37,815 nt of DNA from a virus: IMG/VR virus record IMGVR_UViG_3300017917_000811, positions 1-37,815 of that record. One strand, given 5' to 3'. The first letter of the stretch is position 1; the number at the start of each line of letters is the position of its first letter. This document shows positions 8,695 through 30,262 of this stretch, piece after piece. Under the pieces are notes generated by a model, which did not search any database, was not told the origin of the DNA, and saw nothing but the letters and a program-made list of their open reading frames with translations. A program made the position numbers and the translations under genes.

Positions 8695-10077
8695 TTAAGT
8701 CTGGTATTGGAACCAGAAATCTCCATCGTTACTACCAATATCGTTTACACCTGGATTTGGTGGATTAACGCTGACAAACTTAGCACTGCCACCCCACCAC
8801 TGTCCAGCTGTTCTCACATACTGTGTAGTAGCCACTGCGGCATTACCTGCGCTGGTATATGTTTGTGGTTGTGTTGCAGCAGTAGCACCAGAAGATAAGT
8901 TAAGTCCACTGCTTGTGCCAGTTGCAAGAGTAGCGCCATCTACAACTACACTTAGAACGCCTGTACCGGTATCAATGATTTCAACATAGCTGTTACCTTG
9001 ATAAATTTTGTTTAAATTTAAAGAATTATTTACAAAGGCTGTAGTAGCTAATTGTGTTGTGTTTGTACCTGGCGCCGCTGTAGGTGCAGTAGGTACTCCT
9101 GTTAATTCTGTATCTACAAACTTATCATCTACATATTTCTTTGTAGCAATACCATAGTTTGTAGTCGGGTTATCATAAACTGTAATTAATCCTGTTGCGC
9201 CATCTATAACTAATGCGTTGCGAAGAACACCACTCACGTTAGCTACGAATGTGGTATCACCGTTGTTAATTCTATTGGTAAGATTTACTTGACCACTTGA
9301 AGGTATTGTTACTGAGAAATCTAAATTACTACCTACAGTAATACCGTTATTATTTGTAATACGTAGGTTACCTTGGGCTACGTTGTTTATATCAGCACGT
9401 AGATAGTTGTCTGATATAACATTACCTAAGTAATTGGCATTATTAGCAGTGATGTAGTAGTTGCCACCTGCGATACTTGTATTAGCAGTATGACCTCTGT
9501 AGATAACACTGAATCCTGTTATAGAAGGAATTGGAACAAAGTTAGCATCTTTGCTTAGAACTGCGTGTCTTGCACCGTCTAAGTATAAACTCAGTACGGG
9601 ATGATCTACTGTACCATCACTAATGGTTTCCCAAATAGCACCACTCTTACCTCTGGTTTTCTTGTAAGGAGGACCTACTAAAATCCAACCTAATACAGTA
9701 TAGGGATTAGTGCCGTTGTAAACATATAGTTGTTCTTCTGTTTCGTCCCACCAAAGGTCACCACCTACTGTGGTAACTGGTGCTGTAGATTGACTTAGGC
9801 AACTACTGATAACTTTGAACTGTGTACCTGTGTAGACACGCATACGTTGATCAGTAGTGTTCCACCATAATTGGCCAGCAAGTGGATTAGGCGGTTCGTT
9901 AGCAGTTGTGTTAGCAAAGTTTTCTAACAATGACACAAGATTATTGGCCATTAATTGACCGTAGTTACTGTAGTTACGACCTATTAAAACTAAACTGGTC
10001 TTAGACTTATTGTCTATGGTGCCGTCAGCAATAGTTCCTAACGAAACTCCATTTGTTTTTAATATTGTATATGCCAT
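8695..10077 (-). CDS. Tail fibre/adaptor-like structural protein (paralogue 2)
   Basis: The product has 460 residues. The N-terminus (AYTILKTNGVSLGTIADGT, IGRNYSNYG, AGQLWWNT, GGDLWWDE) is paralogous to the next gene downstream. The C-terminal part differs: it has LTGVPTAPTAAPGTNTTQLA followed by TTAFV, a repeat typical of phage tail fibres, and a second weaker copy around ATTQYV. It ends in a short GDFWFQYQT tail and lacks the DLAERF domain of its paralogue. The start has an AGGA ribosome binding site. It lies 12 bases after the 228-residue gene. A fibre or fibre-connector role is likely, with the shared N-terminus as the particle attachment module and different distal ends. Confidence 0.75.
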   Translation of the reverse strand: MAYTILKTNGVSLGTIADGTIDNKSKTSLVLIGRNYSNYGQLMANNLVSLLENFANTTANEPPNPLAGQLWWNTTDQRMRVYTGTQFKVISSCLSQSTAPVTTVGGDLWWDETEEQLYVYNGTNPYTVLGWILVGPPYKKTRGKSGAIWETISDGTVDHPVLSLYLDGARHAVLSKDANFVPIPSITGFSVIYRGHTANTSIAGGNYYITANNANYLGNVISDNYLRADINNVAQGNLRITNNNGITVGSNLDFSVTIPSSGQVNLTNRINNGDTTFVANVSGVLRNALVIDGATGLITVYDNPTTNYGIATKKYVDDKFVDTELTGVPTAPTAAPGTNTTQLATTAFVNNSLNLNKIYQGNSYVEIIDTGTGVLSVVVDGATLATGTSSGLNLSSGATAATQPQTYTSAGNAAVATTQYVRTAGQWWGGSAKFVSVNPPNPGVNDIGSNDGDFWFQYQT

Positions 10078-10784: not shown

Positions 10785-12401
10785 TTATGGATTTTCTATA
10801 TTATAAATGCGTTCTGCTAATTGATTTAAGGCATCGTTAATGGTGCTAACATTACTTGTCCAGTGTTGGAAGTTAGCCATAGTAAACGCAACATTGCCTT
10901 GTAATACTGTAATTTCTCCTGCTTGTACAGCAGCATTTGAAATTAAACTATTTAACGTAGTTTGTTGTGCAGCCGCATTACCTGTTAATGATCCAACTGC
11001 TGATTGTAGCACAGCAATATTACCTGCTTGTACAGCGGCATTACTTGTCAGTGTAGCAACATTTGCTTCTACGTTGGCGATTCTAGTTGTTAATGTAATA
11101 CTAAGGTTTGCGTCACTGCCTAGAGCTGTAGCTAATTCATTTAGTGTATCTAGTGTGCTTGGTGCTCCGCCTACTAGAGCAGCAATATTTGCAGTAATTT
11201 TACTGTCAACATATCCTTTCATAGCAGTGTTAGCTGTTGTAACATTTGCGGATACGTTTGCTAACTCACTGGTTAGTGTGGCAATATTGCCAGCTTGTAT
11301 AGCGGCATTTGAGAACAATGTTATAACGTTAGCTTGTAGGGAAGATATGTTACTAGAGTGAGCCGCATCGTTAGCAGATAAGTTTGCGCCAGACGAACCT
11401 ATAGCTACTATGGTTGTTTCGATTGAACTAACATTAGACTGCAATATAGCAACGTTAGATTCTAATCCAGAGATATTTCCAAGACTACTTATGAGACCTG
11501 CCTGCACAGCGGCATTGGCTGTTAGAGTAGCGATCTGGCCTGCCTGCACAGCGGCATTACTTTCTAAATCGCTTATCTGTCCAGTGTGTACACCTACTGC
11601 TGACAGTAAAATTTCTATGTTTGCTTCGATACCACTGGCGTCACCTAATATAGCAACGTTGGCTTCCAAGCCTGCAATTAGTCCTGCTTGTACAGCGGCA
11701 TTGGCTTCTAACGAACTGATACTACCTGCTTGCGCTCCTGCGTTAGATATTAAATTTGCTACATCAGATTGTAGTATAGCTATATTACTGCTTTGTGTTC
11801 CTGCGTTGGCCAACAGTGTGGCTATCTCACCTGCTTGCACTGCGGCATTGGCTGTGAGTGTTGCTAATTCACCTGCTTGTACAGCGGCGTTAGCTGTTAG
11901 TGTTGCTAAGGTTCCTGCCTGACTTGCGGCATTACTTGTAAGAGTAGCTAACTCGCCCGCCTGTACTGCGGCATTACTTGTAAGGGTAGCCAACTCGCCT
12001 GCTTGTGCGGCAGCATTTGATGTTAAGGTAGCAAGGCTACCTGACTGTGCACCTGCGTTAGCAGTTAATGTTGCTAATTCGCCTGCCTGGCTTGCGGCAT
12101 TGGCTGTGAGTGTTACGATGTTAGCTTCTATGGCTGCAACATTGCCTTGAAGAGTGGCGATCAATCCTGCTTGTACAGCAGCATTACTAGTCAATGTAGC
12201 AAGGCTACCTGCCTGGGCACCTGCATTAGCTGTTAGGTTAGCTACATCTGTAGTTAAGGTACCTAAGATGTATGTTTTAAATTGATCTACATTACCAGCC
12301 ACTGTAGTCAGTGTTCCCGCCACATTACTTACCGCAGGTATTAGAACATTGCCAAGTACCACCGGTAAACTGGGAAAACTGCTAATCTTAATTGTTGCCA
12401 T
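10785..12401 (-). CDS. Repeat-rich coiled-coil tail fibre protein
   Basis: The product has 538 residues, almost entirely built of a 14-residue repeat of the type LATLTSNAAVQAGE. Seven exact-register copies lie at residues 109-206, with degenerate or interrupted copies before and after. Hydrophobic residues at positions 1, 4 and 8 with Gln at 11 give two heptads per unit, which suggests a long trimeric or dimeric coiled-coil shaft. The N-terminus (MATIKISSFPSLPVV) would be the attachment end. The C-terminus (LNQLAERIYNIENP) is another short helix. The ATG has GAGGA upstream and lies 2 bases after the giant gene. A late promoter-like GATAAATA is 44 bases upstream, inside the end of that gene. 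It probably forms a slender fibre or whisker; no receptor-binding tip is visible. Confidence 0.8.
   Translation of the reverse strand: MATIKISSFPSLPVVLGNVLIPAVSNVAGTLTTVAGNVDQFKTYILGTLTTDVANLTANAGAQAGSLATLTSNAAVQAGLIATLQGNVAAIEANIVTLTANAASQAGELATLTANAGAQSGSLATLTSNAAAQAGELATLTSNAAVQAGELATLTSNAASQAGTLATLTANAAVQAGELATLTANAAVQAGEIATLLANAGTQSSNIAILQSDVANLISNAGAQAGSISSLEANAAVQAGLIAGLEANVAILGDASGIEANIEILLSAVGVHTGQISDLESNAAVQAGQIATLTANAAVQAGLISSLGNISGLESNVAILQSNVSSIETTIVAIGSSGANLSANDAAHSSNISSLQANVITLFSNAAIQAGNIATLTSELANVSANVTTANTAMKGYVDSKITANIAALVGGAPSTLDTLNELATALGSDANLSITLTTRIANVEANVATLTSNAAVQAGNIAVLQSAVGSLTGNAAAQQTTLNSLISNAAVQAGEITVLQGNVAFTMANFQHWTSNVSTINDALNQLAERIYNIENP
11784..12077 (-). repeat. 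Seven tandem 42-bp coding repeats
   Basis: Seven consecutive 42-base units encode the 14-residue repeat LxxLxxNAxxQ(A/S)Gx, residues 109-206 of the coiled-coil fibre. The units differ by mostly silent and a few conservative changes. Less regular units continue on both sides (about 10890-12260). Confidence 0.85.
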
Positions 12402-12403
12402 TT

Positions 12404-15400
12404 TTATTCCTCAATGATTATATCGCCACTTTCTGTCGTTATCGTATTTATCGCATCTTCTGTCACTAAATTATCTGCTACCGCGCCTACTACAATATTA
12501 CCGGCAGTTGCATCTTTCAAGAACAATACCTGTGCAGTTGTGGCCGCATCAAATCCTAAACCATCTGTGGCAGTGCCTGTGCCTAAGTTGTACCATGACT
12601 GTGTCTGTTGATAAACGGTACCACTGCCAAATGTAACTTCGCCTGTTGATGTTACATTACCAATCATAGTTGAACTGTATGGATAAACATTAACATCATG
12701 AGTGCCATTAATAGCCAAGTTGCTTGTGGTAAGCCCAATAGTGCCGCTGTTTCTTACATATACGTTTGAACTCAACCAACTATCGTTTAGTTGAATGTAG
12801 TCAAATGTGCTAGATAGCAGTGCCACAGAATTGTATCTTGCTAAAATGTTAGCACTGGATGTGTAGCTCTGTACCACAGTTAAGTTTGCACCTGTTGCAG
12901 GTTGGCTAATGAAGTCGCCTACGTTAGCTCTAATGTTACCGCTTAACTGTACACTGACGTTAGCAAAGTCAAATTCTGCAGAGTTATTGTAGTTAATTAA
13001 TACTACACTGGTTCTTAGATCAGTTCCAACCACAAGAGCATTGGCACCACTGGTTGCCTGTGTAATAATGTCACCTACGTTGGCCTGTATTGCTGTGTTT
13101 AATCTCAATTGGTAAGTAACTGACTCTGTTACAGTGTAAGTGTTAGAACTAGTGTAAGAGATGTTGGCCAGGCTAACGTTAGGAACAACCTGTAATAGAC
13201 TTGCATCAACAACAAGAGTACCGCCACCATAGTAGGATTGTACGGCTGTACCTTGTGTACCTCTACGAATTTGTCCTAAAGTACCTGCAGCAACATTAGC
13301 TGTCCAGTAGGTAATGCGCTCACTACCAATAAAGATAATACCTGGAATTTCTTGACTTGGTGTTGGTGTTGCTAAGGCAGCAACGTTAGCCACATGTATT
13401 TCTGTGTCATCCAAGGCCAACGGTTGTGTTAAGGTTGTACTGTAACGGTCAGCTATACGTAGGAACTCGGTATTGTTTACCATGTTCTTGAATATACGGT
13501 AACCTACTACATCAACGTTGCCATTGATCTTAGTATAGACTTTCATGTCTAAGGTATCGTACATGATACCTGGTACTAATTCTTCTGGAGCATGACTAGA
13601 ATAAGTGTCTACGTATGCACCACCATCTACGTTAATGTCTTCAGGACGGGTACCCAAAGTACTGTCAATAAATTCGCTACGTATAACTGTATCTAACGCA
13701 CTTTCACTAAGTAAAGGACTACCATCCTCGTCATACTCTACGTTGTCAAAATCTCCGCTGTCAAACGGATTAATATCATTGTTACTGATATAGTCTAAAT
13801 CTGTAACATGCACGTTGCTTAGATACACACCGTCAAGCGTAACATTACCAAATGTTATAGCACTGTTACCTAATACCCAGTCAACTGAGTTATTAAGTTT
13901 AACCTGTAGTTTGTTGCTTGTCCAAACACGAGTCACTGTGGCGCTAGCATCTTCCAGAGGTATTTCTACGTAGTTTGATAGACCTACTGTGGTAATTGTT
14001 GGGCGAATACCAACGTTTGACCAACCCCACGGAGCAACGTTACTTGTGGCACCAGTTACTGGATCCACCACTACATTACCGTAGATACTGCGTACCGCTG
14101 CTGTACCGTTTACAATTAGGTTAGCTGTTGCTTCAACAAAAGGTATGTTATTTTGTTTTACTAAAACAATTTCATCACCAGCTACAACACTTCTGTATAC
14201 ACGAGCATTAGCTGTAATTGATACGTTCCCAGCACCTAAATAAGTTTGTGTAACAAACTCGCCAACATTTGCAGAAATAGGTAATGATACTCCTAAAGCT
14301 ATGCTTGCTTCTGGTTGAGTAATTAGATTACCAGTCATACCTACCGTTAATCCAGTGCTACCACTGAATGTGATGTTGGCATAAGCAGTGCCTGGGAACC
14401 CTGGTTGTTGACTAAAGTCAAGACCCTGTATCTGTACACCTGGGTATTCTATACCGTAGACTAATTGTTTAAGATCCTTAGCAGGCATGTTAGCGCCAGG
14501 CACATAGTAGGCCATTATACGATCGTTGGCGTTGCTAAACTCACCCGAATTATATAATTCGTAGTTGATTGGATTAAACGTAGCGCCTGTAGTAACATTA
14601 GCAACTACTCTATAACCTTGACCATTATAACTTACAATAGTATTAGCTGTATAGAATGTATTAGCTGACCACTCTTGTACCGTTGTGTTGTAATTAACAC
14701 GATCAAATTTAAGTGTAGTATTTAACGAACGTAGTTGATTGTTGGTCAGCACTGCGTAGGCTTTAGCTGTAGACTGGGAGCCACCGTTGACCGTAACTGT
14801 TGGAGTAGTAGTATACCCAGAACCTGTGCTTGTTACTGTTATTTCAATCAGTCGACCAGTGTCACCGTCTATGGCAGCCACTGCTGATGCACCACTACCG
14901 CCGCCTCCTGATATTATAATTTCAGGAGTGCTAGTATAACCTAAACCAGGATCTGTGATAATGATAGATTCGATACTGTAGGTTCTGTGATTATACCACT
15001 GTGGATAATCTTGGTTGATTACCTGTCCGGTAGTTGTTAGAATTCCAGTAGACCATAGTTGTTCGTCTATGGCTACGTAGTTACCTTCTCCATTTGGACT
15101 ACGGAATATATCATTTTCTGCATCGTAGTACGGTGGTAGATCAAAGTCAGTAATGCTGCCCTGGAACTCATCTGATCCCGTATATGAAGTTAAGTATTCT
15201 CTTATTTTTGTAACATAAGGTTTTACTTCCTTGATGTATTCTTCATAATAGGTTTGATTATCTTTGATATAATTAGCAGGTTGATCTAAAGATCTCAAAT
15301 TGTGTGTAACAGAAATAAAACTAGTTTTGAATATCCAGTCTACAAATTTTTGCTCATTAAACAGATAGTTTACCATCACAAAGAATAGACGGTTAAACTC

Positions 15401-18400
15401 ACCTTCTAACTCGCCTGTAAATATACTGTCGCGTAGAGCTTCAATTATATTACGTATTTCTTGGTTAGGGTTTTGATCAAATCGACTGGTTTCGTAACCT
15501 TGATTGCCAAAGCCTATTCCGTTGTTAGCAAAGTCGCTAAGATCAGATTTAAGTTGAATTGTACCGTTTTGTATACCTACTACTTGGAACGTCCCGTCAG
15601 GTAATACAGTTAATAGATTCCAGCCGCCTTGTGCTGTGTTATTAACTTTAACTAATATTTCGTCGCCGGTAGCTGCAGGTAATTTCAATGCATCTACTAA
15701 GGTATCTACTACAAACTCAATAGCTTCGTTAGCATTATATCCCAATGCGTACCAATCAACATAATCCCAATAGAGATCAGTGCGGAAACTCTGAACACGT
15801 ACTATAGACCAAGATTTATCAGTTTGTAACTCGTAAATTGTCCATAGATTATCCTGTGTAGTATCTTGACGCACTAATACTTTGTAGCCTACTGGCAGTA
15901 AATTAGTATCTAAGTAATCTAGTTCAACTTGTGTTTCTACTGCACTATTCCATTGTCCCTCGGTTGGATTTTGATCGAAGCTGTAAGGAATAGGTTCCCC
16001 AGACAGTAGTTGATCAAAATTGTATTGACGAGCAATAGGTTTTTGAATTAAGATTCCATTTACATAATCAATTAAATCGTTCAAAGCACGTAGTCTATCA
16101 ATAAACATGCTCTGTCTTGGTCGTGTACTGATACCGTACCTGTCAGCAACACTCAACGATTGATCTGGCACAACAGCACCTTGAGCATCTATACCAGCCA
16201 AACTATCAATCATTTTATTTGATATTTTTTCAGGTATTATGCTAAATTTATTACCGCTTTGCAATAATTCATATTCGCTGTGTATTAGATTGCTGTTTCT
16301 TACAAGTTCATAATCTAAATGTAATACTGTGTTGTTGGCTGAAAGGAAACCACCAACATTGTACAATATAAATGCGTTAGACTTGATAATAGCACCGTAG
16401 GCAATACCCTGACTCTTTGGATTACTAATAAGATTAGATATGATCGATACTGGTAATGTTCTACCTGTATTAACTCCTGTAATACTAGATTTATTTTTGA
16501 CCCAGAAGTAGTACTTGCTGGTAATAATATTAGTTGTAGGATCTACATAAGTTATTTCCACGTAGGCACTGTCATCAGCATACTTAGGTTCGCCATCAAA
16601 GCCTGCCGCAATATACTGACTTGGTAGCACTGTTGATTCTACCCACTCGCAGACTTCTACAGTACTGCCGGGGAATAATCTACCCCAGTTCACCGCACGG
16701 TAGGCAAGACTACCTTGTTCATAGTCAATGAAACGAACTTGTCCTAGATTCCACCATACTTGATTAACTTGATTGTCACCCCAGTATGTTTCAGTGTTTA
16801 ACAATATGCGTGTGCTGTCACCTCTGTTGTAGATAGCAGGGTCGTATTCTGTCTTATAAGTGATATCTTGTTCTGCGGCACCTAGTATTTTACCTTTTGC
16901 AGGGTCAATAAACTCTAAATTGGTTAAAATAGTATTGGTCTGATTATCAAACAAATACATGCGATTTACAGTATCAGGGTCAACTTGTGGTTCTTGATAT
17001 CTAATTAGGTTCCAACCACGTTTTAGCGTAGGATTAGTGAACAAATATAGTTTACCTGCGTTAGGTGAAGCATCATCATTATTGGGTGCGCTAACGATAA
17101 TCATACCATTGATAATATCTATATCTGTACCAAAGCTGTCCCCGCTGGCTAGATCACCTGGATCTAGTTGTTGACAGTAAGCATATCGTCCTGGATGTTC
17201 TACTTCATCACGAGGATCATCGTATAATTCGTAAATATATACACTACCACTGCCTGGCATGTCATCAGTGAACACGGTGCTGTCATCATCAAAGACTAGT
17301 TCATCGTTGTCAAAGGTGGTTTCATACTGTGTAGTACCACGTTCACTAGCAATAACTAACATATATGCGTTACGTGCTAAAATAACTTTGTTACCAAAGT
17401 ATTCGCCAGGACGGCCGAATGGATTAATAATAATCTGCATGAACGCAAACACCGCCATACCTGCCGCAGTATAAACATTACTTGCGCCCGGATCTCCGTT
17501 GGCATTTCTACCAGACAATGTACGTAGTAGATTTTTAGCAACAGTTCTATCTGACAGTAATCTTAAATAACCGTTTTGATTTACAGCACTAACACCTAAT
17601 ATGCCTGCATCATTAACGTCTTTAACAAAACTATCTAAGCTGGCCATTGGATGTACTTCAACGTTAGACCATGTGGCAGTCATAGTTGAATAGTTGTTAC
17701 TAATATACGTAGCATCGTTAATTAATAAATTACCAGAACCAAACGTAAACCCAGTTGTACTTGCTGTGGTTTGATTAATAATGTATGAATTTGCCGCAGG
17801 GTATGCGCCGTTGATCAGTACAGGAGCCACATAATCAGTTGTAGAAATAACCTGTACATTAGATGCAAAATAAACCCCGTTTAATCGAATGTTAGCAGAA
17901 TTACCGATTACATTACCAGTAATAGGTGTAACATTTACTGTTGAGCTACTAAACACATTACCAACTACTCTTGCGTTTGCAGTCACAGCACCAATAGTTT
18001 GAGTAATGTACTCACCTACGTTGGCACGAATTGCTCCGCTTAAACTTAATTGTGTGATGGCCGGTGTAAAGTCTACATTGTTGACTGGTCTTATAGTCAC
18101 AGTAGCCACGTTCGAATTAGCATAAACCATTGCGTTAGCAATAACACCGTCTATAACCTGTGTTATGTAATCGCCTTTGGTAACAGTAATAGGTTTAGTC
18201 AAAGACAAAGTAACATTAGTATTATAGGAAGTGCTGACTGTGATTGTTTTACTACCTGTGTTGCCTGTATTTGCTAACACTGTTACATTAGCGCCAGTAC
18301 TCGGCTGTGTAATGTAATCACCCACATTGGCACGTATTGTGCCACTCACAGCAAGTACATTTGCTGGTGTACCGTCACCCAATGTAGTGGGCATCATACG

Positions 18401-21400
18401 ACCTGATACAAATACTTCAAAGTTGTCAAGACGTATACTGTCTCCCGGAGTAAACACTGGGTTAAAACCAAATCCAGTATTGATACCGTATAAGCGACCT
18501 TTGTTATGGAACTTCCAAACAGCACCTTGATTATATAGACTATTGGCTGTGTATTTTGGCGCACCAATATAGATAGCGCAGTTATTACTACAGATTGTTA
18601 AGCTGGTACCAAATCGTGAACCATCCTGAATAGCACCTGTTCCGCCTTGCAGACTGTCAATACCTACTAATAATTCAAGTAGATTAAATTTATTTGTTTC
18701 AACGAAAATTAATTTACCCACACCCGGCGGGTTTACAAATCTTAAAGTATTAGGATCTGCTATGACATATTCAGAATCATCTATTTCTATGTCATCTATA
18801 GTTACTCGGTACACTAACCCAATGGTACCTGTGGTAGCGTAGTCCTGGCCGTTAGTTCCCACTATAGCATCTTCCATGCTATTAAAGGCTTCAATGACTC
18901 GATCGTATACATAGACAGCACCAGCGCCTATCTTCCAGGTGCCGTTAACCATAACATTGGCATTAGGTGCGCCAACTGCCAATTGTGCGCCATCTTCTGA
19001 GCTGTCTAAGTCATACCCAAACTCACTGTTATCAGGGCCTACTAATTCTTCACCTACTTGTGAGAAGTAAGGTTGTTGAACAATAGTTACTGTTGTGGCA
19101 GGAACATTAGCTGTAAACACCAGTGTGTCGCCTATCAATGTGTAGTCAACATCTGGGATGTATGTTCTGTCACTTATAGTTACTAACAAACTAGCAGCAA
19201 CGTTTGCCACATCGGGCGTAAAGTTTAGTTTAATATTTGCTGATGAGCCGCTGGCTGAATATACATATTCTTTGCGAGTAACATGTGTGTTAAGTCCGTA
19301 GACATACACACGGTCTTCTGCTGGTGCGCCTATATATAACCAACGACCGCTATAGTCAAACGATGTACTGCTACCGAATCGTCCAGTAGCGCCTATGTTA
19401 CCAACTATTACCTGTGCTCGTTGATACTGAGTAGTGCCAACTGGTCTATTATACACAAAGGCCATACCAGTATTACCGTAGCTACCTGGTGCACCTACTA
19501 CCATTTTCTCTACAGCTAAGTCTACACTGTATCCATATTCAGATACTTGAACATTAGCGTTACCAGCATCCGCCGCAAGGTTAAATCCTTGTATAAACTC
19601 ACCAGCATAATTTTTATCGTATGAGAATAGTCTACCTGTGGTTACTTCTGTTGCACTCCAGGTAGGTGTAGTGTTAGCATAAGGACTGCCTGCTACTACA
19701 ATCAGCCCATCGTAACTCATTCTGATACTAGTACCAAATCCGCTGTTAGATTGATAGTCTAATTCAAACTTATCTAAAGTTTGACCGTAGCTCCAAGGAA
19801 TAGTTTTTTCGTATACCTTCCAAGTTTTACTTGGCGTTTCAAACGGTTGCCCTTGCACAAAGCTGGTGGCTGCATCATCGTCAATCCAGATCTTGTCACC
19901 TACCTTCCAATTACGTATAGGATTAGTCAAGCCATATACACGAGCATCTTCCATGTACAAGAAACGCATACTATCTAAGCGCATCAGTATACCGTTACCT
20001 GTAAGAGTAGTCAATCCATCTAAGTTACTTGGATTTTTATAGTAAACCACAGCAACAGTGTTTAGATCTACAACATTGAATACTTGATAGAAACCGTCAT
20101 ATACTGCATCAAATTTACGCATTAAGAAAATTTCATTTTCTTGTAGTCCATGTGGACGTTCTGTTCTAAATGTAATTACACCGTCTAATACATTATTAAT
20201 CTCAACTACAAAATTATTTGTTTCTGTAACACGATATACGTTCCAATCCTGTGTAAAGTCTTTTGCTACCCATATTTTATATCCTGTGCCTATGTTATCT
20301 AAATCATTGTTTAGTTCTTGGTAATTAGCAAGATCAAAAATAGTTGCATCTACGTCATCAATGTTTACATAACCTGCGGTAGGAATGTCGCTGTTGTACA
20401 GACTGCTGTCATCTCTGTTGAGAGCAATATTACCTGTGAATTCGTTAGTTGATCTGTACAGTTGGAAACGATTGAATACTGTGATGCCGTCGGCTTCATT
20501 AGCACGACTATCAGGCACGAACTCAGCAGTAGTAGGGTTAGCACTGAACGCTGTTTCATCTAAGTTTACTTCAATGTACGGGTTACTGTCTAATGCACCG
20601 TATTCTCCTACACGCACTGCCCATTCTTCAAAGTAGTTAATGTCAGATTTAAGATTGTTGAACTCTGCTCTGGTTAATTCATTAACTGCATTAGCACTGC
20701 CTTTTTCTCTAATATAACCTTTGTAAAATTCAATCTGTGTAGCATCTGTTAGGCCAAGGTCAACCAAATATTGGCGAGGTTTGAATCCGATAAGTCCATG
20801 ACTGTATCTAACAATATCTTCATCGTCAAAGTCACTGTAGCTATCATAGTATGACTGTGATTTTACAGCAATAGTGCTCCAGTTTGGCAGTAGTCCTGAT
20901 TTAATTTCTGTTTGACTTAGTTGTTTCCACTGACTAAAGTCAAATTCTGCTGTGCCTGGTACTAACTGTAGGGCTACGTAAAACAAGTTTTTAAACTGTA
21001 CAAGCTCGCCTTTTAAGTAGTCTCTACCAGGTTGCCACTCTTGAACAGTGCTAGAGTTGTATACGAAACCAGGAGCATATAGACTACCGTCCCAATTAGC
21101 AGTCTTTTGTCCTACAACTTTCAATCGATACTGTCTGTTACCTAATTCTGGTCTGTAAATTACATCATCAAACACTGTGGTATTGTCAAATATTAATACG
21201 TGTTCGTACTGTACTAGATTTAGTTCGGCAAAGGCCAAGACATTTTGATCTTGTAGTTGGACTGTAAACGTATTAGCTGATCTTGTTACATTGTAGTCGG
21301 TATTCTTAACAAGGGTGTAATTTTGATCTAATATTCTCGAGCCATATTGACTGTCAGACACTCCATCTACTATACTACCGATAGTAGCCAGCTTAAGATA

Positions 21401-24400
21401 ATTTGCCACTGGGTTAAGGATTAACAGACTACCTACTGCCCATCCTTGCTGTGCCCAGAACAGGAATTCTTTTGAGCTTAACTTCCAGTTACGAGTTTCT
21501 TTTAACTCTGTGTCATAATCATTGAACTGGAAGCCTTGTGCTACCAAATAGCGTTCATAACTGATCAGGAAGTCTACTACCTGTTGACGTGATTTGAATT
21601 CGTAGCCATATGGTACTGTTAACTTGATGCTCTGATAGTCTCTATAAACAACACCTTCTGCATTCAGTACTGTGATCTTGTAGGCGTTGGTGTTAACTAT
21701 ACTTGGAATTATAGTAAAGTAAGGATTATTGAGGTCATACCCTCTTACTGAAAAACCGTTAGAAGTTTTTTCTACGATCACACCGCTGTAAGCCACACGA
21801 TTTACTGGGGTTGATTTGTATAGATATACTTCGTAGTTTTCATCTGGTATCAACACGCTTTCATTGGTGCTGGTAGGACTGCTTTGTTCTGCCAATACAC
21901 GTAAGAATTTTTTATCCGTAAAACCTGCTATCTTGTAGGCAAGATTTACACGATAATTTTTCAGCATTGTTGTAATTTTAGTGCTTGGATTAATACTCTT
22001 GCTGACTAAGTAATCTGCTATCCAGTTTAGGTAACCACTGTGTCTTGACACGGTGCCTGAACTTATGTCTCCATTGAACCCTATATTATCTTGTGTTAGA
22101 TGTTGGTTTTGGCTGTCTAAATACTGTGTTAATTCTGTGTTTAGTTTGTAAGAAGATCTATCAATGTACAAACCGAAATATTTGGCTGGCTTAGCCAAGG
22201 CCAAAGCAATCTGTAGAGAATAAGCGTAGTCACTGCTACGACGCCATGCGGTTTCTACAGGACCCCATTGTCCTACTGCCCATGCTGTGGCTGCTTTGGT
22301 TGCATTAAATCCTGCAGTCATCATTGCCGCTGGACTTAATAGATATCCGTTTTCGTCAACCGGGATAACTTTGCTAAGTCCTGGACGAGCAAAAAGACTA
22401 TCGTAACCTTGGCGATCACCTTCAACGATAAATCCTTGCTCTAAATGATCCCACAAGAGTTTATTAGTACCTGCGTATGGTGCAGGTCCATAGTAGCCTT
22501 CCCACCAATCTGGTTTGACAGCAAACCCTAACATTTCCCACGGACGTAGATGAGGAACATCGGTATCGTAAAAATACTGATAACATGCACGCCAACTACC
22601 TGGTAGGAACTCACCATCAACTCGGTCAACAAAATTACTGTAGTTCCAGGTAAATGGATTGTTATTTTGGAATGATGTGTTTGAGGAATAATCTAATTTA
22701 TTATTACCTACCCAGTTTAAGAAACCTTTACTGATAATTCTATTAACTTCACTTAGTGAATAATCATTATCTCTAAACTTACCAGGTAATACTGCATACA
22801 TTTCCCACTGTGCAGTTTTAGCTGGTAATTTAATATTGTTATAGATACGGCGTTCTAATTCAAGTATGAAACTGTCGCGATAGTCATCAAATGCAGGAGT
22901 TAGGCTTCCGTCATGTCCACGTATTACATTACTTGGATTTACATAGGTATCATCTAAAAACTTCTCCGGTACAAACTTAGGATACAATCCTAATTTACTT
23001 GGGGTTTCAGGGATAAAACTACCATTAGTGTTAGGATATTCTACAAAAGTAAGTTTGTCATCTATGTCTAATGTTACAGATGCCTTGATCTCTATTGCTG
23101 GTCTGTCTGTTGAAAACACATAATCCACTTCAAAAGTTAGTTGTTGGTTATTTAGATATACCAGTACTGCTGAACCACTTATTTGATAAGGATCAAACGC
23201 ATTTGTAATTTCATAACTACGTTGTAGCGGATCAAAGATTGTATAATCAATTGTAGTTTTAACCGCACCGTAAGGAACCATGTCACTGTAGAACCAAGGA
23301 AATGTGCTTGTTTTATTTTTATTAATTTCAGTTAAAATTAAATCCACACTAGTTACAGGGTCTAAAGGATCTACACCTGGCAGACTCGCAGCCATTTCTA
23401 AGAATTTATTCTTAAATTTTGCGTATTCTCGCTGTGCATATCGTACTGCATCTACAAAATTAGCCTGATCGTCTAACAAGAATAAGCTAGCATAAGGCGT
23501 GGGCGCACTGTGTTGTAGAATCGTACCACCTTGATTTTTAATTTCAAGGTCACGTAAATTGCTACTACCTAATATATCACCCTCAACAATAAAATTGTTC
23601 TGATTTAATTCTACCAAATGATTTCTCATTTGGCCTAGGGTTAGAGTTTCTAAGTTAATACCTTGTGCATTAAGGTCTAAGTTAATAGGTACTTGATAGT
23701 GACCTAGTTTGCTTATGTCTTTACTGTATACTTGTATGTCTACTTTGTCGCCAACAGTCAAAGGATAAGTGTTAAAAATGTGTACTCCGTTTTTGCGATT
23801 ATATGGATCGTTTGCATCCGCTAGCACCAAATCCCAAAATTCTTTTTTAACTAATCTGTTGTTTACAAATACTTTTAGATATGGTATAGTACTTTCTGTT
23901 TCAGGTAACACGTCAATAAAGAATTTTTGATCGTCGTTAGGGGTACCAATATTTTTACCAATTTGATTATTACCATCATACACTGTGTTAATAATTTGAT
24001 ATTGGCGGCTAGATTCTACTACAGTGCGCCAAGTATTGTAGTGCGATACTACATATCTACTGGTAGTTTTTTGTAAGAATCCTGTGTTAATTGGCTGCGT
24101 TAACTGTTGACTATCTACAACATAGCTAAAAGTATCTGCGCTGTAGTAATTGAAGAATTGTATGTCACCTTGTGTGATAAAGTTTTTATAAGTTAAAGGA
24201 AACCCTAACACAGCATCATCAGTTCCGGCACTGTTACGTTGATATCCAAACACAGGTGATCCCACAAATGACGAACGTGGGTACTTGGTTGCATCACTGA
24301 AACTTGTACCGGTACTGTCAAATAAGTCAAATAGCGGATCTTGTTGTAGTATTGTTTTTTGTTGGCTTTCTAACCAACGGTCACCATCATACCACCATTG

Positions 24401-26413
24401 ACTACCTTTGAATCTACCATCTTTTACTACCACAGTATCGTAGGGCTCGCTGTTGCCATCTTCTGCAATAGTTAAATTGATACGGAAATCTCCTGTTGGT
24501 AGTCCAGTTACTGGATCAGCATCATATTGAACTAAATTTAAGGTATAAATTTTATCTCTGACCAGAGGGTCAGCTGCCGCACCAAACAATACTCGCATAC
24601 CATTGTATAGTGTTACACCAAATGCTGACGATAAAACTTTACCTTCCAATGTGTTAAACGGGTCAACAGTGTCTATGTCTAAAATGTCAATTGCAGGCTT
24701 GCCTATACGACCATTGTTAAACAATCTGAAGTCACCTTCGAACTGTATGATAGGACGTTGAGCTCGCAGGCGTTGATTGAATGTAGGTTGAACTCTGTTA
24801 TATTCAGCAGTCTTAATAATAACGTCAATATGGAACCAACGATTATTACGAGACCAAGGATTTAAATCAAGTGCATCTCGTTTAATTGTTATGTACTCGG
24901 GAAAAACTTGATCAGGATAGTTAACTGCTAACTCAGTATTGTATGCTTCAGGCGTTACTAATAGTGTTGTATCGATTAATCTAATACTGTCGCCTACATT
25001 CTCTACGTAGTATTCTTTGTTTTGATATTTTTCTGGGGTAACATCTGTTTCAAATCTGACTTTAAGACCGCTGGTGAAATCTACACCATTAGGACTTGTG
25101 TAGTATGGTTGACTTAGAATATCATTCTCAACGTCAATAGCAAAGTTTGTAGATTCTACAAGTTTAATAGTTGTGTAGATACCTGGCGCTGTGCCGTCTT
25201 GGATATATAATGTATCTTTAGGTGCAGTGATTAAAGGAACTTTATAGAACAGACCGTTAGATTCTTTATAGTATTCTTTGTTAGCATTAGCTAGGCCATA
25301 TTTGATGTATACTTTTTCATCTACAGCAACGTCTTGAACGTATACTAATCTGATCAAAGGATCATCAGTACCACCATCAGTATACAGTACCTGCCATACA
25401 CCATAACGTTGATTTTCGGGAACTAATGTACCTGCATCGTAACCTTCTAACTCGAGTCCGTCGCGATCAAATACACCTCGTGCTAACCAAGCCTCTTCTC
25501 CGCTTAGTGGCCAGGTATCTGTGTCAACAAAAACTAAAGTTTTACCGTTGAGTTGTCCTGTGATACCTGCATACTGTGGATATTCTTCTAAGAAGTCGCT
25601 TAGTAGTCGGTTATGTAAATTAGCATAAGGTAAAGGTGTAGCGTAGTCTACGTTATAGACTGTGTTCATCAAGGTAAAACGATCTTGTGCATCAGATTGA
25701 GGAACGTTGAATATTACTTCGCCGGTGTCGGCACCATTGTTAATTACACCCAATACATCTCTTGTGCTCAGAGTAGGAGTTGCGTTGATTAAGCCATCTA
25801 TGCCCAACTCTGACTGTATCCAGAACTTATGTCCTGGCTGATTTACTACGAAAGTATAACTACCACCACGTGCCAAAGTTATTGTATTATTAACCGTGCC
25901 GCCTGTGCTGAAATCATATCTTGATACTGTAGTGTTACGTGTTACATCGATTTGTTTAACTAATTCTACGCCTGTAGTGTTTACTAAAACACTGTCAGGG
26001 CCGTTAGGTAACCAATAATATTGACCAAAGTTAACTAACTTGTCGAGACTGATGCCTGGATCAAAAGAGTAGTAATCATTTTCAAAAAGTCTACTATGGT
26101 CGTCTATTATGCCGCCATAATATTTGACCTTGTTTAGGAAATCTATATAGCTGGCAAAAAATACAGTTTCGTTAGATTCATTTTTTATTAGTACACCAGG
26201 TTCTAACTGATAGTTTTGTCTATCTTGATTGTTTTCTATCAAGTAACTATCTGTACTTTTATATGTAGGTGCAAATTTACGACCAATATATCCGTTGATA
26301 TTTTGCAGTGATGGTTCGCTGATTAACTGATCTATCGTTGCTGATAAAAACTTATCGTTGATATCAGTTTGAAATATCTGTGGCAGTAAATTTAAACTTT
26401 TTCTTTGAGCCAT
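12404..26413 (-). CDS. Giant virion structural protein, 4669 aa
   Basis: A single uninterrupted frame of 14 kb. The N-terminus (LLPQIFQTDINDKFLSATID, then NGYIGRKFAPTY, YQLEPGVLIK, YYSFDP and YYWLPNGP) matches from memory a conserved large virion protein of marine T4-like phages. The body is a string of beta-rich segments. At about 17050-19770 there are six FG-GAP-like repeats of the integrin alpha type (for example FGTSIRMSYDGLIVVAGSP and YGYSVDLAVEKMVVGAPGS). There are also six copies of an ANVGDYITQ-type element and two GLGYTSTPEIIISGG-type repeats near 14790-14960. No enzyme motif or signal was recognised. It lies between gp6 and the fibre gene, 2 bases before the latter. It is probably a tail or baseplate appendage such as a long fibre; this is inferred from context. 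A weak late promoter precedes it. Confidence 0.85.
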   Translation of the reverse strand: MAQRKSLNLLPQIFQTDINDKFLSATIDQLISEPSLQNINGYIGRKFAPTYKSTDSYLIENNQDRQNYQLEPGVLIKNESNETVFFASYIDFLNKVKYYGGIIDDHSRLFENDYYSFDPGISLDKLVNFGQYYWLPNGPDSVLVNTTGVELVKQIDVTRNTTVSRYDFSTGGTVNNTITLARGGSYTFVVNQPGHKFWIQSELGIDGLINATPTLSTRDVLGVINNGADTGEVIFNVPQSDAQDRFTLMNTVYNVDYATPLPYANLHNRLLSDFLEEYPQYAGITGQLNGKTLVFVDTDTWPLSGEEAWLARGVFDRDGLELEGYDAGTLVPENQRYGVWQVLYTDGGTDDPLIRLVYVQDVAVDEKVYIKYGLANANKEYYKESNGLFYKVPLITAPKDTLYIQDGTAPGIYTTIKLVESTNFAIDVENDILSQPYYTSPNGVDFTSGLKVRFETDVTPEKYQNKEYYVENVGDSIRLIDTTLLVTPEAYNTELAVNYPDQVFPEYITIKRDALDLNPWSRNNRWFHIDVIIKTAEYNRVQPTFNQRLRAQRPIIQFEGDFRLFNNGRIGKPAIDILDIDTVDPFNTLEGKVLSSAFGVTLYNGMRVLFGAAADPLVRDKIYTLNLVQYDADPVTGLPTGDFRINLTIAEDGNSEPYDTVVVKDGRFKGSQWWYDGDRWLESQQKTILQQDPLFDLFDSTGTSFSDATKYPRSSFVGSPVFGYQRNSAGTDDAVLGFPLTYKNFITQGDIQFFNYYSADTFSYVVDSQQLTQPINTGFLQKTTSRYVVSHYNTWRTVVESSRQYQIINTVYDGNNQIGKNIGTPNDDQKFFIDVLPETESTIPYLKVFVNNRLVKKEFWDLVLADANDPYNRKNGVHIFNTYPLTVGDKVDIQVYSKDISKLGHYQVPINLDLNAQGINLETLTLGQMRNHLVELNQNNFIVEGDILGSSNLRDLEIKNQGGTILQHSAPTPYASLFLLDDQANFVDAVRYAQREYAKFKNKFLEMAASLPGVDPLDPVTSVDLILTEINKNKTSTFPWFYSDMVPYGAVKTTIDYTIFDPLQRSYEITNAFDPYQISGSAVLVYLNNQQLTFEVDYVFSTDRPAIEIKASVTLDIDDKLTFVEYPNTNGSFIPETPSKLGLYPKFVPEKFLDDTYVNPSNVIRGHDGSLTPAFDDYRDSFILELERRIYNNIKLPAKTAQWEMYAVLPGKFRDNDYSLSEVNRIISKGFLNWVGNNKLDYSSNTSFQNNNPFTWNYSNFVDRVDGEFLPGSWRACYQYFYDTDVPHLRPWEMLGFAVKPDWWEGYYGPAPYAGTNKLLWDHLEQGFIVEGDRQGYDSLFARPGLSKVIPVDENGYLLSPAAMMTAGFNATKAATAWAVGQWGPVETAWRRSSDYAYSLQIALALAKPAKYFGLYIDRSSYKLNTELTQYLDSQNQHLTQDNIGFNGDISSGTVSRHSGYLNWIADYLVSKSINPSTKITTMLKNYRVNLAYKIAGFTDKKFLRVLAEQSSPTSTNESVLIPDENYEVYLYKSTPVNRVAYSGVIVEKTSNGFSVRGYDLNNPYFTIIPSIVNTNAYKITVLNAEGVVYRDYQSIKLTVPYGYEFKSRQQVVDFLISYERYLVAQGFQFNDYDTELKETRNWKLSSKEFLFWAQQGWAVGSLLILNPVANYLKLATIGSIVDGVSDSQYGSRILDQNYTLVKNTDYNVTRSANTFTVQLQDQNVLAFAELNLVQYEHVLIFDNTTVFDDVIYRPELGNRQYRLKVVGQKTANWDGSLYAPGFVYNSSTVQEWQPGRDYLKGELVQFKNLFYVALQLVPGTAEFDFSQWKQLSQTEIKSGLLPNWSTIAVKSQSYYDSYSDFDDEDIVRYSHGLIGFKPRQYLVDLGLTDATQIEFYKGYIREKGSANAVNELTRAEFNNLKSDINYFEEWAVRVGEYGALDSNPYIEVNLDETAFSANPTTAEFVPDSRANEADGITVFNRFQLYRSTNEFTGNIALNRDDSSLYNSDIPTAGYVNIDDVDATIFDLANYQELNNDLDNIGTGYKIWVAKDFTQDWNVYRVTETNNFVVEINNVLDGVITFRTERPHGLQENEIFLMRKFDAVYDGFYQVFNVVDLNTVAVVYYKNPSNLDGLTTLTGNGILMRLDSMRFLYMEDARVYGLTNPIRNWKVGDKIWIDDDAATSFVQGQPFETPSKTWKVYEKTIPWSYGQTLDKFELDYQSNSGFGTSIRMSYDGLIVVAGSPYANTTPTWSATEVTTGRLFSYDKNYAGEFIQGFNLAADAGNANVQVSEYGYSVDLAVEKMVVGAPGSYGNTGMAFVYNRPVGTTQYQRAQVIVGNIGATGRFGSSTSFDYSGRWLYIGAPAEDRVYVYGLNTHVTRKEYVYSASGSSANIKLNFTPDVANVAASLLVTISDRTYIPDVDYTLIGDTLVFTANVPATTVTIVQQPYFSQVGEELVGPDNSEFGYDLDSSEDGAQLAVGAPNANVMVNGTWKIGAGAVYVYDRVIEAFNSMEDAIVGTNGQDYATTGTIGLVYRVTIDDIEIDDSEYVIADPNTLRFVNPPGVGKLIFVETNKFNLLELLVGIDSLQGGTGAIQDGSRFGTSLTICSNNCAIYIGAPKYTANSLYNQGAVWKFHNKGRLYGINTGFGFNPVFTPGDSIRLDNFEVFVSGRMMPTTLGDGTPANVLAVSGTIRANVGDYITQPSTGANVTVLANTGNTGSKTITVSTSYNTNVTLSLTKPITVTKGDYITQVIDGVIANAMVYANSNVATVTIRPVNNVDFTPAITQLSLSGAIRANVGEYITQTIGAVTANARVVGNVFSSSTVNVTPITGNVIGNSANIRLNGVYFASNVQVISTTDYVAPVLINGAYPAANSYIINQTTASTTGFTFGSGNLLINDATYISNNYSTMTATWSNVEVHPMASLDSFVKDVNDAGILGVSAVNQNGYLRLLSDRTVAKNLLRTLSGRNANGDPGASNVYTAAGMAVFAFMQIIINPFGRPGEYFGNKVILARNAYMLVIASERGTTQYETTFDNDELVFDDDSTVFTDDMPGSGSVYIYELYDDPRDEVEHPGRYAYCQQLDPGDLASGDSFGTDIDIINGMIIVSAPNNDDASPNAGKLYLFTNPTLKRGWNLIRYQEPQVDPDTVNRMYLFDNQTNTILTNLEFIDPAKGKILGAAEQDITYKTEYDPAIYNRGDSTRILLNTETYWGDNQVNQVWWNLGQVRFIDYEQGSLAYRAVNWGRLFPGSTVEVCEWVESTVLPSQYIAAGFDGEPKYADDSAYVEITYVDPTTNIITSKYYFWVKNKSSITGVNTGRTLPVSIISNLISNPKSQGIAYGAIIKSNAFILYNVGGFLSANNTVLHLDYELVRNSNLIHSEYELLQSGNKFSIIPEKISNKMIDSLAGIDAQGAVVPDQSLSVADRYGISTRPRQSMFIDRLRALNDLIDYVNGILIQKPIARQYNFDQLLSGEPIPYSFDQNPTEGQWNSAVETQVELDYLDTNLLPVGYKVLVRQDTTQDNLWTIYELQTDKSWSIVRVQSFRTDLYWDYVDWYALGYNANEAIEFVVDTLVDALKLPAATGDEILVKVNNTAQGGWNLLTVLPDGTFQVVGIQNGTIQLKSDLSDFANNGIGFGNQGYETSRFDQNPNQEIRNIIEALRDSIFTGELEGEFNRLFFVMVNYLFNEQKFVDWIFKTSFISVTHNLRSLDQPANYIKDNQTYYEEYIKEVKPYVTKIREYLTSYTGSDEFQGSITDFDLPPYYDAENDIFRSPNGEGNYVAIDEQLWSTGILTTTGQVINQDYPQWYNHRTYSIESIIITDPGLGYTSTPEIIISGGGGSGASAVAAIDGDTGRLIEITVTSTGSGYTTTPTVTVNGGSQSTAKAYAVLTNNQLRSLNTTLKFDRVNYNTTVQEWSANTFYTANTIVSYNGQGYRVVANVTTGATFNPINYELYNSGEFSNANDRIMAYYVPGANMPAKDLKQLVYGIEYPGVQIQGLDFSQQPGFPGTAYANITFSGSTGLTVGMTGNLITQPEASIALGVSLPISANVGEFVTQTYLGAGNVSITANARVYRSVVAGDEIVLVKQNNIPFVEATANLIVNGTAAVRSIYGNVVVDPVTGATSNVAPWGWSNVGIRPTITTVGLSNYVEIPLEDASATVTRVWTSNKLQVKLNNSVDWVLGNSAITFGNVTLDGVYLSNVHVTDLDYISNNDINPFDSGDFDNVEYDEDGSPLLSESALDTVIRSEFIDSTLGTRPEDINVDGGAYVDTYSSHAPEELVPGIMYDTLDMKVYTKINGNVDVVGYRIFKNMVNNTEFLRIADRYSTTLTQPLALDDTEIHVANVAALATPTPSQEIPGIIFIGSERITYWTANVAAGTLGQIRRGTQGTAVQSYYGGGTLVVDASLLQVVPNVSLANISYTSSNTYTVTESVTYQLRLNTAIQANVGDIITQATSGANALVVGTDLRTSVVLINYNNSAEFDFANVSVQLSGNIRANVGDFISQPATGANLTVVQSYTSSANILARYNSVALLSSTFDYIQLNDSWLSSNVYVRNSGTIGLTTSNLAINGTHDVNVYPYSSTMIGNVTSTGEVTFGSGTVYQQTQSWYNLGTGTATDGLGFDAATTAQVLFLKDATAGNIVVGAVADNLVTEDAINTITTESGDIIIEE
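12445..12452 (-). promoter_or_regulatory. Late promoter-like GATAAATA inside the end of the giant gene
   Basis: GATAAATA on the minus strand lies 44 bases before the fibre gene ATG (12401) and within the last codons of the 4669-residue gene (EDAINT). It would give the fibre an independent late transcript. The 20-base context is nearly the same as at 10755-10774. Confidence 0.55.
17050..19770 (-). other. FG-GAP-like beta-propeller region in the giant protein
   Basis: Six repeats with an F/YG..(hydrophobic)..(V/Y)(G/S)(A/S)P pattern are encoded here. They are at approximately 19680-19760, 19490-19560, 19320-19390, 18950-19030, 18540-18620 and 17060-17150, each followed by a tyrosine- or phenylalanine-rich strand such as GAVYVYDR. 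Spacing between the last two is larger and holds the ANVGDYITQ-type repeats. They resemble FG-GAP (integrin alpha) blades. Six or seven blades would make a propeller. Boundaries are approximate. Confidence 0.6.
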
Positions 26414-26454: not shown

Positions 26455-29400
26455 TTAAGCCTGGTTTAACTGTGCAGCAGTGATAGCACTAATAATCTGC
26501 ACGTTGTCTACTGTGGCAGCACTGACAATAATTTCATTGTATTCAGCATTAATTTGTAGTAGCCTACCAAATGTTTCATTTTCGCTTGAGGGGACAATGA
26601 TCACACTGGCTATACTTGGTGCAAGGGTATTATGCAGATATGCACTCAATTCACTGAAGTAGAATGTTTCACCGAAGTCCCAATTAGCAATATCAAAATA
26701 TTGATTGATTGCAGCAATTACACTCACCTTAACATCATTGTCACTGATCACCACGTTTGGATTCTTAACAACCTTAAATGTAGCCTGAAGAGCCGTTGGC
26801 GCTTTGGCACCAAAGATTGGCTTAAACTTAGCAGGATTATAAATTATAGTGTCACTGATACTCTTAAAGTTATTCAATTGGCTAAAGTCTGAATTCAATA
26901 CTTCAGGGGTAGGTGGCTCCGGTTCTGTTAGTTTGCCTGAGGTGTCCTGTAGCCAAGCAACGTAATCTGTTGCGTAGGTTTTAGTTAACACATACAAATC
27001 AATAATATTGTTAGGACTTGGGTCGATACGTCGATTGTTAGGACTGTTATGACGATACTGAAAATAAATGTCTTGTCGACCTACCTTAGCAGTATATCCT
27101 GTAACTAATACTGGAGTATAGGTACTGCCCACCACGCTCAACTGGTAAAATACATCAAGGTCAGGTATGTAAAATAATTGTCCGTCTTTGTACAGAGTTG
27201 CGCTGGCCTGTATTTGAGTTAGGTTACTGTACTGTGTTTCAACTAAACTATTGCTGACTGGTGTTTGTACAACAAAGTTGTCATAACTAAATGTGTCTTG
27301 GAAAAATACATATTTGTTACCTGTGTCAACTTTAGGATTTACGATTAATTCAAACAATTCAGGATTGTCTGGTATACCATCATTGTCGCTGTCAGGGAAT
27401 GTAATTAGAATTTTATTAGGATTCTCATAACCGTCAGATTCAATAATATTTTTATATACATACCAAGTATAATCAATGCCTAACTGTTGTGTGTTGTCAG
27501 GCTGACTGTTAATCTTTAGTACGTTAATTTGATCGTTAAGGGTTAGACCTGTTCTTGGGTCAAATACCTTTACTTTAGGATCATAATAAAAATTAGTTTC
27601 TCTTACGCTTTCAAACGCATAATTAACGCCTCTATACCACACTGTGTAAGTCTGACCTGATGTTTGAAATCTTACAATCCAACTTGCATCATCTGCAGCA
27701 CCGCTGTTTAGCAGACTGAATGTATCTGTGGGATTAAGATTTTCAGGTAGAATAATTTTCCAACTGCTGCTGTCAACATCGTAACGCAGTCCGAAATCTT
27801 GGAATGATTCAATATATTCTGTCATAGTGTTGATCAATGCGTTGGGTAGATCAATATTAAACACAGCAAAAACCTGTACAGCACGTGCACCTGTTGGTAC
27901 AATTTCATTAATCACTACTGGACCACTACCGCTGGCTAAATTTCCTTGTCCGCCGTTGGTACCGTCTGCTAGTACTTCACGAACGCTGGCATAGATGTAA
28001 TACTTGTCACCATTCTTAGTAGGTACACCAGCTTTGATTTGATTACGTGCATTAAAGTAGTTGCCTTCACCTGCTGAAAATTTAACAATAGCATCTTGTT
28101 TGATATATTTTTTACTGCTGGCAACAAAATTACCAATCTGTAAAATTTTGTCTAAACTATCAGTAAAGTAGCCTGTGCTACCATTAGCCAATTCGGTTGA
28201 CTTGTTCCAGAAGCAGTCATCTATTTCAATTAGATCATAGAAAGAATAGAAAAACTGCTGTGTTTCTTTTTCTGCTATGATAGGCTTAACTCTGTTGGTC
28301 AGCACTTTAAAAATGTCGTTACGTGTCAGATAGTCAAAGTTAAATGATTTAACAAAGTCTTCTCTGTACAATAAGCCGTCTTGACAGAATATGTTAGTAG
28401 ATGAATACTTACCTGTGGTATCAATAACATCTAAGTAACGACTTACACCACTGCTGGTACGGTTAACAGCTTTGATCTTTAATATAGTGCTGAACAGTGT
28501 GTAGGGTAAGATATTATAGTCTTCAGCTGTAACCATACGATTTTGAGTGTAGTACTGCTGTGGTGCTTTTTGACGCACATCGTCAATGGACTCGCGTGCA
28601 GTGGCATTGGCTACTGTGTACTGTAGGCTTGCTCTGATTGTCAGTGTTTCCACGCGACCAGTACGGCTAATGTAGTTTAAATTCATTGTAATGCCGCGTA
28701 GTTCGTCTGGTGTTATCTTATATTCTAAACCGTTGCTGACACGATAGTAGATACGGAAAGTGCCCTGTGGAATATTAGCAAACGCACCATCACCAAACAC
28801 GATGTCAATTTGATCAGCAGCACGGCTGTTGACTTGGTATACATTTTTATTCACGCTCTTGTTATAGATAACGTTGGTAGTGCCCACAGCAGGAACCTGT
28901 TGCCATAGGGTGCTGATCTGTCCGTTTTGATCTAAGCTGTATACCCAAATATCTGAATTATTAATGTTATTAACGTTGATGCTGTACACACGATTAGGTA
29001 GGCTTTCTGCAAAATTAACATCTACAGATTTTAGTTCGCCCTGTTTGAAATATGTAAAGAAACCAGTGTTGATACTACTGACGCCTAAGTTGTCATTTTT
29101 GTACAGGAAGTTAAAACTTGTGTTAGGTCTTGGACTTACTTCATAGATATAGTTTTGTCCCACAGATGTAGCACTGATCAATTCAAAAGGTGTTTGACTG
29201 CCTTCTATGTCTGTTTGGAAACTGTAGGTAGCCACGGTATTAGGAATAAGATTAACCTGATACTCTTCGGTGTTGATACCGTTGATCAATTGACTGTTGC
29301 TGGGTTTGCCCACAACCTGTGTGCTGACAAAGCTGGCATTTAGTATGGTAACAAACTGCTCGTACCAGTTGTCGTTACCTGCGTCTGCCCAGTTGATCAC

Positions 29401-29871: not shown

Positions 29872-30249
29872 TTATACTACTGTGACGTTGTTGCGTTGAC
29901 TGTCAAAGCGTAAATTCATTACACTGCTTTGATTTGTTTGAATATAGCGTAGTTCTAACTCTACTTGAATGCCGTACTCGTATTCTGTGATGATCACGTT
30001 GTCTATGCCCAGTCTGGGATCGTAGCTGGCAATGGCTTTAATGTCTGATGTTATGACACTGCGCAGGTCATCAGTCAAAGGCTCGTGCAGTACATTCCAT
30101 ATGATTGTACCAAAGTTAGGATTCATAAGTTTCTCGCCCTTGCGAATGTGGAAATGGTTTATCAAGTCTTGCTTGATCAGTTCAAAATCCACAAGGCGAA
30201 ACTTACGTGTTCTGCCAACTGTGCTGAATCCTCTATACATGGTAGCCAT
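29872..30249 (-). CDS. 25: Baseplate wedge subunit gp25 (GPW/gp25 family)
   Basis: The product has 125 residues, close to T4 gp25 (132 residues). It carries the family pattern: a DFELIKQDLINHFHIRKGEK segment, MNPNFGTIIWNVLHEPL and a YDPRLGIDNVIITEYEYG strand pair. The EFGT-like element of GPW/gp25 proteins appears here as NFGT. It is a structural wedge protein joining the sheath-initiation region of the baseplate; family members are lysozyme-related in name but not enzymes in myophage baseplates. Its start lies 9 bases before the gp5 stop. A GATAAATA sits only 6 bases from the ATG, and no good ribosome binding site is visible, so the message might be leaderless. Confidence 0.93.
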   Translation of the reverse strand: MATMYRGFSTVGRTRKFRLVDFELIKQDLINHFHIRKGEKLMNPNFGTIIWNVLHEPLTDDLRSVITSDIKAIASYDPRLGIDNVIITEYEYGIQVELELRYIQTNQSSVMNLRFDSQRNNVTVV

Positions 30250-30254
30250 ACAAA

Positions 30255-30262
30255 TATTTATC
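30255..30262 (-). promoter_or_regulatory. Late promoter-like GATAAATA directly before gp25
   Basis: GATAAATA on the minus strand overlaps the gp5 stop codon and ends 6 bases before the gp25 ATG. With the T4 late promoter geometry (core at -13 to -6), transcription would begin at the A of the ATG. It may be functional or a coincidence. Confidence 0.4.

Follow-up and report, generated by a model that had tools for sequence, protein, structure and literature searches.

A predicted integrin-type propeller inserted in a giant baseplate-region protein of an uncultured jumbo-phage-like lineage

The giant gene and its baseplate neighbours

We analysed a stretch of viral DNA of 37,815 nucleotides (IMG/VR record IMGVR_UViG_3300017917_000811, positions 1 to 37,815), referred to here as the window. 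All features described below lie on its minus strand. The reading frame at 12404-26413 encodes a protein of 4669 residues, the length given in an earlier note on this sequence, and the protein matches the virion structural protein family PHROG 10938 with 1208 bits; an NCBIfam search with it returned no match. Directly upstream lies a gene for a gp6-like baseplate wedge protein (26455-29820; PHROG 10646, 1027 bits; PHROG 219, 89 bits), preceded by genes for a gp25-like wedge protein (29872-30249; PHROG 261 and PHROG 43) and a gp5-like baseplate hub subunit/tail lysozyme (30258-32342; PHROG 13211, 157 bits). The order of the gp5-, gp25- and gp6-like genes followed by the giant gene is broadly the same in PA5oct, RaK2 and CBB, and the wedge-gene order of Phosso matches that of the window. 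By its neighbours, then, the giant gene belongs to a contractile-tail baseplate cluster, which agrees with the phage appendage setting proposed in the earlier note. The PA5oct homologue of the giant protein is annotated as found by ESI-MS/MS. The CBB homologue, by number and position, is CBB_236, a protein detected among the CBB virion proteins with 21 peptides (PMC5259590).

The giant gene, placed after the gp6-like gene, recalls by its position T4 gene 7, which comes after the gene for gp6, although the giant protein is 4.5 times longer than gp7. Because profile-profile comparison finds no similarity between the two (probability 0.1-0.3%), we draw the link to gp7 by position alone. Comparisons of the same kind with T4 gp5-gp12, gp53 and wac gave no homology to the giant protein.

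Several other products of the structural cluster and parts of the giant protein can be described from their sequences. Directly downstream of the giant gene, a 538-residue protein (10785-12401) has tail-fibre PHROG matches and contains repeated NAxxQAGxxATLxxN-like units. Further downstream are two adjoining genes for fibre-like proteins with similar N-termini (7146-8654 and 8695-10077), the first with a weak, below-cut-off match to the Peptidase_G2 autoproteolytic domain at its C-terminus, and a gene for a radical SAM-like protein (548-1957); in Phosso, too, the giant gene is followed a few genes downstream by a radical SAM gene. Within the giant protein are two stretches resembling CBM5/12 (chitin-binding type 3) modules, at residues ~1790-1830 (window ~20924-21046), which was recognised by eye, and ~3912-3950 (~14558-14680), where the best Pfam stretch is 3914-3944. 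Weaker CBM5/12-like stretches occur in the SCTP-2 and PA5oct homologues.

FG-GAP repeats and their predicted fold

The earlier note had proposed an integrin-like FG-GAP propeller at window positions 17050-19770, which correspond to residues 2215-3122 of the giant protein. The best Pfam family for the whole protein is indeed FG-GAP_2 (PF14312; E=1.2e-9), with a score of 38.6 bits against a curated cut-off of 23 and the best match at residues 3081-3125; in the genome search the family was scored separately in two stretches, at 38.3 and 20 bits. A regular-expression repeat motif matches eight times in the propeller region, one of these matches being apparently spurious and internal, compared with a mean of 0.31 and a maximum of 4 in 2000 shuffles, and it matches nowhere in the remaining 3729 residues of the protein. 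Alignment with relatives places repeat starts at residues 2226, 2293, 2346, 2465, 2601, 3006 and 3094, with the propeller spanning ~2226-3141. Of 43 non-redundant relatives, 42-43 retain the aromatic-glycine start of any given blade; the exceptions are a relative missing part of blade 5 and another with LG in blade 7. The family score, the conserved starts and the shuffle test together establish that the repeats are real and embedded in the giant protein, as the note had described, but their number is seven rather than six.

The blades resemble one another to differing degrees. In profile-profile comparisons values of 85-97% were reached by almost every pairing within the set of blades 1-4 and 7, with only 8-15% for the pair of blades 1 and 7; blade 5 reached 85% at most and blade 6 57%. 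Control segments gave mostly <2% and at most 12%, setting aside one control that is void as it overlaps blade 7. When compared with PDB sequences, the family profile matched integrin alpha-6 (E=5.9e-8), integrin alpha-4 (E=1.8e-6) and other integrins; the single giant protein found nothing relevant in the same search, so that the matches come from the family profile alone. A search of bacterial and archaeal genomes with the window propeller found no relatives.

An AlphaFold model of the window propeller, made with 40 sequences, has a pLDDT of 66.5. The value is depressed by inserts: blades 1-4 lie mostly at 80-96, blades 5-6 are lower and the blade-5 inserts are very low. The shortest natural relative (L032, 784 residues) was modelled with a pLDDT of 77.7 and a pTM of 0.79, and the strand list of this predicted model falls into seven groups of four, the arrangement of seven four-stranded repeats expected of an FG-GAP propeller. 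In Foldseek searches of the PDB, integrin alpha heads account for all of the first 50 matches listed for the window model and for 49 of the first 50 listed for the L032 model, the latter with target-normalised TM-scores of up to 0.60 over ~725-757 columns and rmsd values of mostly 8-13 Å. The TM-scores and strand counts suggest a closed ring of seven blades, a reading to be taken with those mostly 8-13 Å deviations. Matches among viral models include giant-virus FG-GAP proteins, an FG-GAP protein of an uncultured phage, a virion protein of cyanophage S-TIM5 and an Atu_ph07 'hemagglutinin'. The note's integrin-type reading thus draws support from Pfam, the AlphaFold model, the Foldseek matches and the family profile.

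The whole insertion, with its seven blades and inserted modules, covers residues ~2208-3130 (17024-19792) as judged from Pfam, the alignment and the models. Blade 1 (FGTSIRM..., residues 2226-2280; 19574-19738) and blade 2 (YGYSVDL..., 2293-2337; 19403-19537) were placed by repeat alignment and model, the second also by the Pfam genome search. Whole domains are inserted in blades 3, 4 and 5. Strands 1-3 of blade 3 (FGSSTSF..., 2346-2376; 19286-19378, from alignment and model) are separated from strand 4 (2441-2452; 19058-19093) by an all-beta domain in the model (19094-19285), in a loop whose length ranges from 73 to 242 residues among relatives. Similarly, strands 1-3 of blade 4 (FGYDLDS..., 2465-2511; 18881-19021, from alignment and model) are followed by a modelled beta domain (18716-18880) and strand 4 (2568-2582; 18668-18712). 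By alignment, model and conservation, strands 1-3 of blade 5 (FGTSLTICSNNCAIYIGAP...GAVWKFH; 18506-18613) form the most conserved stretch of the propeller. They are followed by ANVGDYITQ-type modules starting at residues 2689 and 2791 (17654-18349), a low-confidence part of the model found in few relatives, by a small alpha/beta domain (SLDSFVKDVNDAGILGVSAVNQNGYLRL; 17474-17641) found across the lineage, and by the modelled strand 4 (FAFMQIIIN; 17426-17455). Blade 6 (FGNKVIL...GSVYIYELYDDPR, 3006-3082; 17168-17398) was assigned by alignment and model, and blade 7 (FGTDIDI..., 3094-3141; 16991-17134) by Pfam and model. The cysteines of the CSNNC motif in blade 5 (residues 2608 and 2612) are retained in nearly all relatives; the entire 4669-residue protein has only five cysteines.

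The predicted propeller therefore resembles that of integrin alpha subunits in its seven four-stranded blades, its FG..GAP signature and its best PDB matches by fold and by sequence profile, at an identity of only ~12%. It differs in that blades 3, 4 and 5 each contain inserted domains between their third and fourth strands, and in its calcium-loop sequences: the earlier note had suggested looking for DxDxDG-type loops in the blades, and the strict form DxDxDGxxD is present in 0 of 43 relatives, which rules out integrin-type calcium loops. Furthermore, an integrin alpha subunit is a membrane-bound receptor whose propeller is followed by thigh and calf domains, whereas the propeller described here is carried by the PHROG 10938 phage scaffold. 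It represents a relative of the integrin head, in phages, that dispenses with the calcium loops.

The insertion site and its empty counterparts

A beta-hairpin of the scaffold, WKVYEK...WNLIRYQ, carries the propeller at its tip as an insertion. The empty-site alignment places the left strand of the hairpin, KTWKVYEKTIPW, at residues ~2196-2207 (19793-19828) and the right strand, WNLIRYQEPQVD, at residues ~3134-3145 (16979-17014), the latter also serving as the outer strand of blade 7. When residues 2208-3130 are omitted, WKVYEK...WNLIRYQEPQVD aligns with hairpins that run without a break in SCTP-2, Atu_ph07, Phosso and PA5oct, and an environmental relative (L235) has the unbroken hairpin NKWAVYKKGVYSWAQYRTQVDSVDLSKIN. 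These empty-site relatives mark the point of insertion. RaK2 and CBB likewise lack the propeller, with <100 residues where the window protein has ~1000. A laminin-G-like segment seen by eye before the SCTP-2 hairpin was not confirmed by Pfam.

The giant proteins of RaK2-, CBB-, PA5oct- and Atu_ph07-type jumbo phages (PHROG 10938) have the scaffold and gene order in common with the window. The similarity of the isolated jumbo phages to the window protein extends over most of residues 1-2170 and 3134-3770 and does not include the propeller, which they lack. In a survey based on the adjoining scaffold, the propeller was present in 80 of the 80 nearest relatives, a set that includes several near-identical contigs and one fragment (L174), and absent from 43 of 80 relatives on the PA5oct side, these 43 including one fragment and one truncated frame. 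Among 39 propeller-less relatives examined, a short unbroken hairpin was recognised by pattern in 22, and most of the others have short extensions at that site.

Taken together, these comparisons of sequences and predicted models give good support to a seven-bladed propeller of the integrin alpha-head type inserted in a baseplate-region giant of an uncultured jumbo-phage-like lineage. Both FG-GAP propellers and baseplate propellers were already known; what appears to be new is the embedding in a wedge-region giant. An uncultured freshwater phage protein, UFOVP1367_22 (L026), belongs to the same repeat family (PF14312 at 3.8e-26) and is encoded a few genes after a tape-measure gene, but it is a stand-alone protein of 473 residues rather than an internal insertion in one of 4669. 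Phage phiKZ gp131 has a C-terminal seven-bladed propeller at the baseplate periphery for which receptor binding has been suggested, and the phage phi11 receptor-binding protein (RBP) has a five-bladed propeller, also at the baseplate periphery (PMC4901313). These are domains of separate proteins and not inserts in a wedge-region giant, and the first 50 PDB fold matches of the L032 model name neither of them. The titles and abstracts of literature on FG-GAP and phages or tails, a source of incomplete coverage, contain no description of a propeller embedded in a wedge-region giant. Propellers had been known from separate fibre proteins of phages. The present one sits within the scaffold of a baseplate-region giant of jumbo phages, and the RaK2-type giant, so far called no more than a 'virion structural protein', becomes open to domain-by-domain testing.

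Possible roles of the propeller

The likeliest role of the propeller, to which we assign a probability of about 0.6 from its position and conservation, is that of a docking and presentation platform for host contact at the baseplate. The hairpin would hold the propeller outward from the baseplate, with the conserved blades 4-6 packing on another part of the virion, such as a wedge neighbour or a fibre base. The outward-facing parts would be blades 1-2 and the modules within loops, which would present a variable binding surface; integrin-type calcium loops would play no part. The mean pairwise identity is 0.70-0.77 in blades 5-6, 0.69 in the scaffold core and 0.43-0.50 in blades 1-2, and the variable parts of the propeller are blades 1-2 and the loop modules. 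This pattern, with blades 5-6 conserved to the level of the scaffold, suits a platform no less well than a direct receptor binder.

Direct receptor binding, in which the propeller itself would contact a host-surface glycan or protein, is the main and a strong rival, though we consider it clearly less probable. By analogy, receptor binding is a known or suspected function of propellers at phage baseplates, and direct contact with the host surface has been proposed for those of staphylococcal phage RBPs (PMC4901313). Variability in the propeller is greatest in blades 1-2, the 2-3 loops and the inserted modules, and the same giant protein contains the two CBM5/12-like stretches. Against this possibility, not only blades 5-6 but also several loops (TICSNNC, YELYDDPR..VEHPGR) are conserved to the same extent as the scaffold core, and the propeller is retained in all nearest relatives, without swapping among close ones.

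A purely structural or assembly part, serving as a spacer or wedge stabiliser without host contact, would account for the high conservation of blades 4-6 and the strict retention in the lineage. We nevertheless regard this as improbable, given that variable, length-changing modules are present on both faces, which is not expected of an internal spacer, and that isolated relatives assemble without the propeller. A reading as chance repeats, or as some unrelated beta repeat that forms no propeller, is scarcely credible, for although the Pfam match is confined to two stretches and blade 6 is weak (57% at best), the shuffle test, the seven conserved starts, the model and the integrin matches by fold and sequence all argue otherwise.

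Within the platform reading, a more specific and tentative proposal is that one face of the propeller is fixed to the virion while the other displays small beta modules whose kind and position change from relative to relative. If true, such a display would let a jumbo-phage lineage alter its host contact without exchanging fibres. Relatives have ANVGD-type modules added at differing loops. In a divergent clade (L163-L187) the seven blades and the blade-5 domain, recognised by eye in L165 and others, are retained in a propeller of only ~600 residues.

The module starting ANVG(D/E)xxTQ, or a close form of it, occurs in five copies in the giant protein, at residues 2689, 2791, 4042, 4438 and 4490, and its appearance at different loops among relatives gives the impression of a module mobile within the protein. 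One relative (L014, IMGVR_UViG_3300008259_000310) has a shorter frame from which part of blades 4-5 is absent, through either a deletion or an assembly error.
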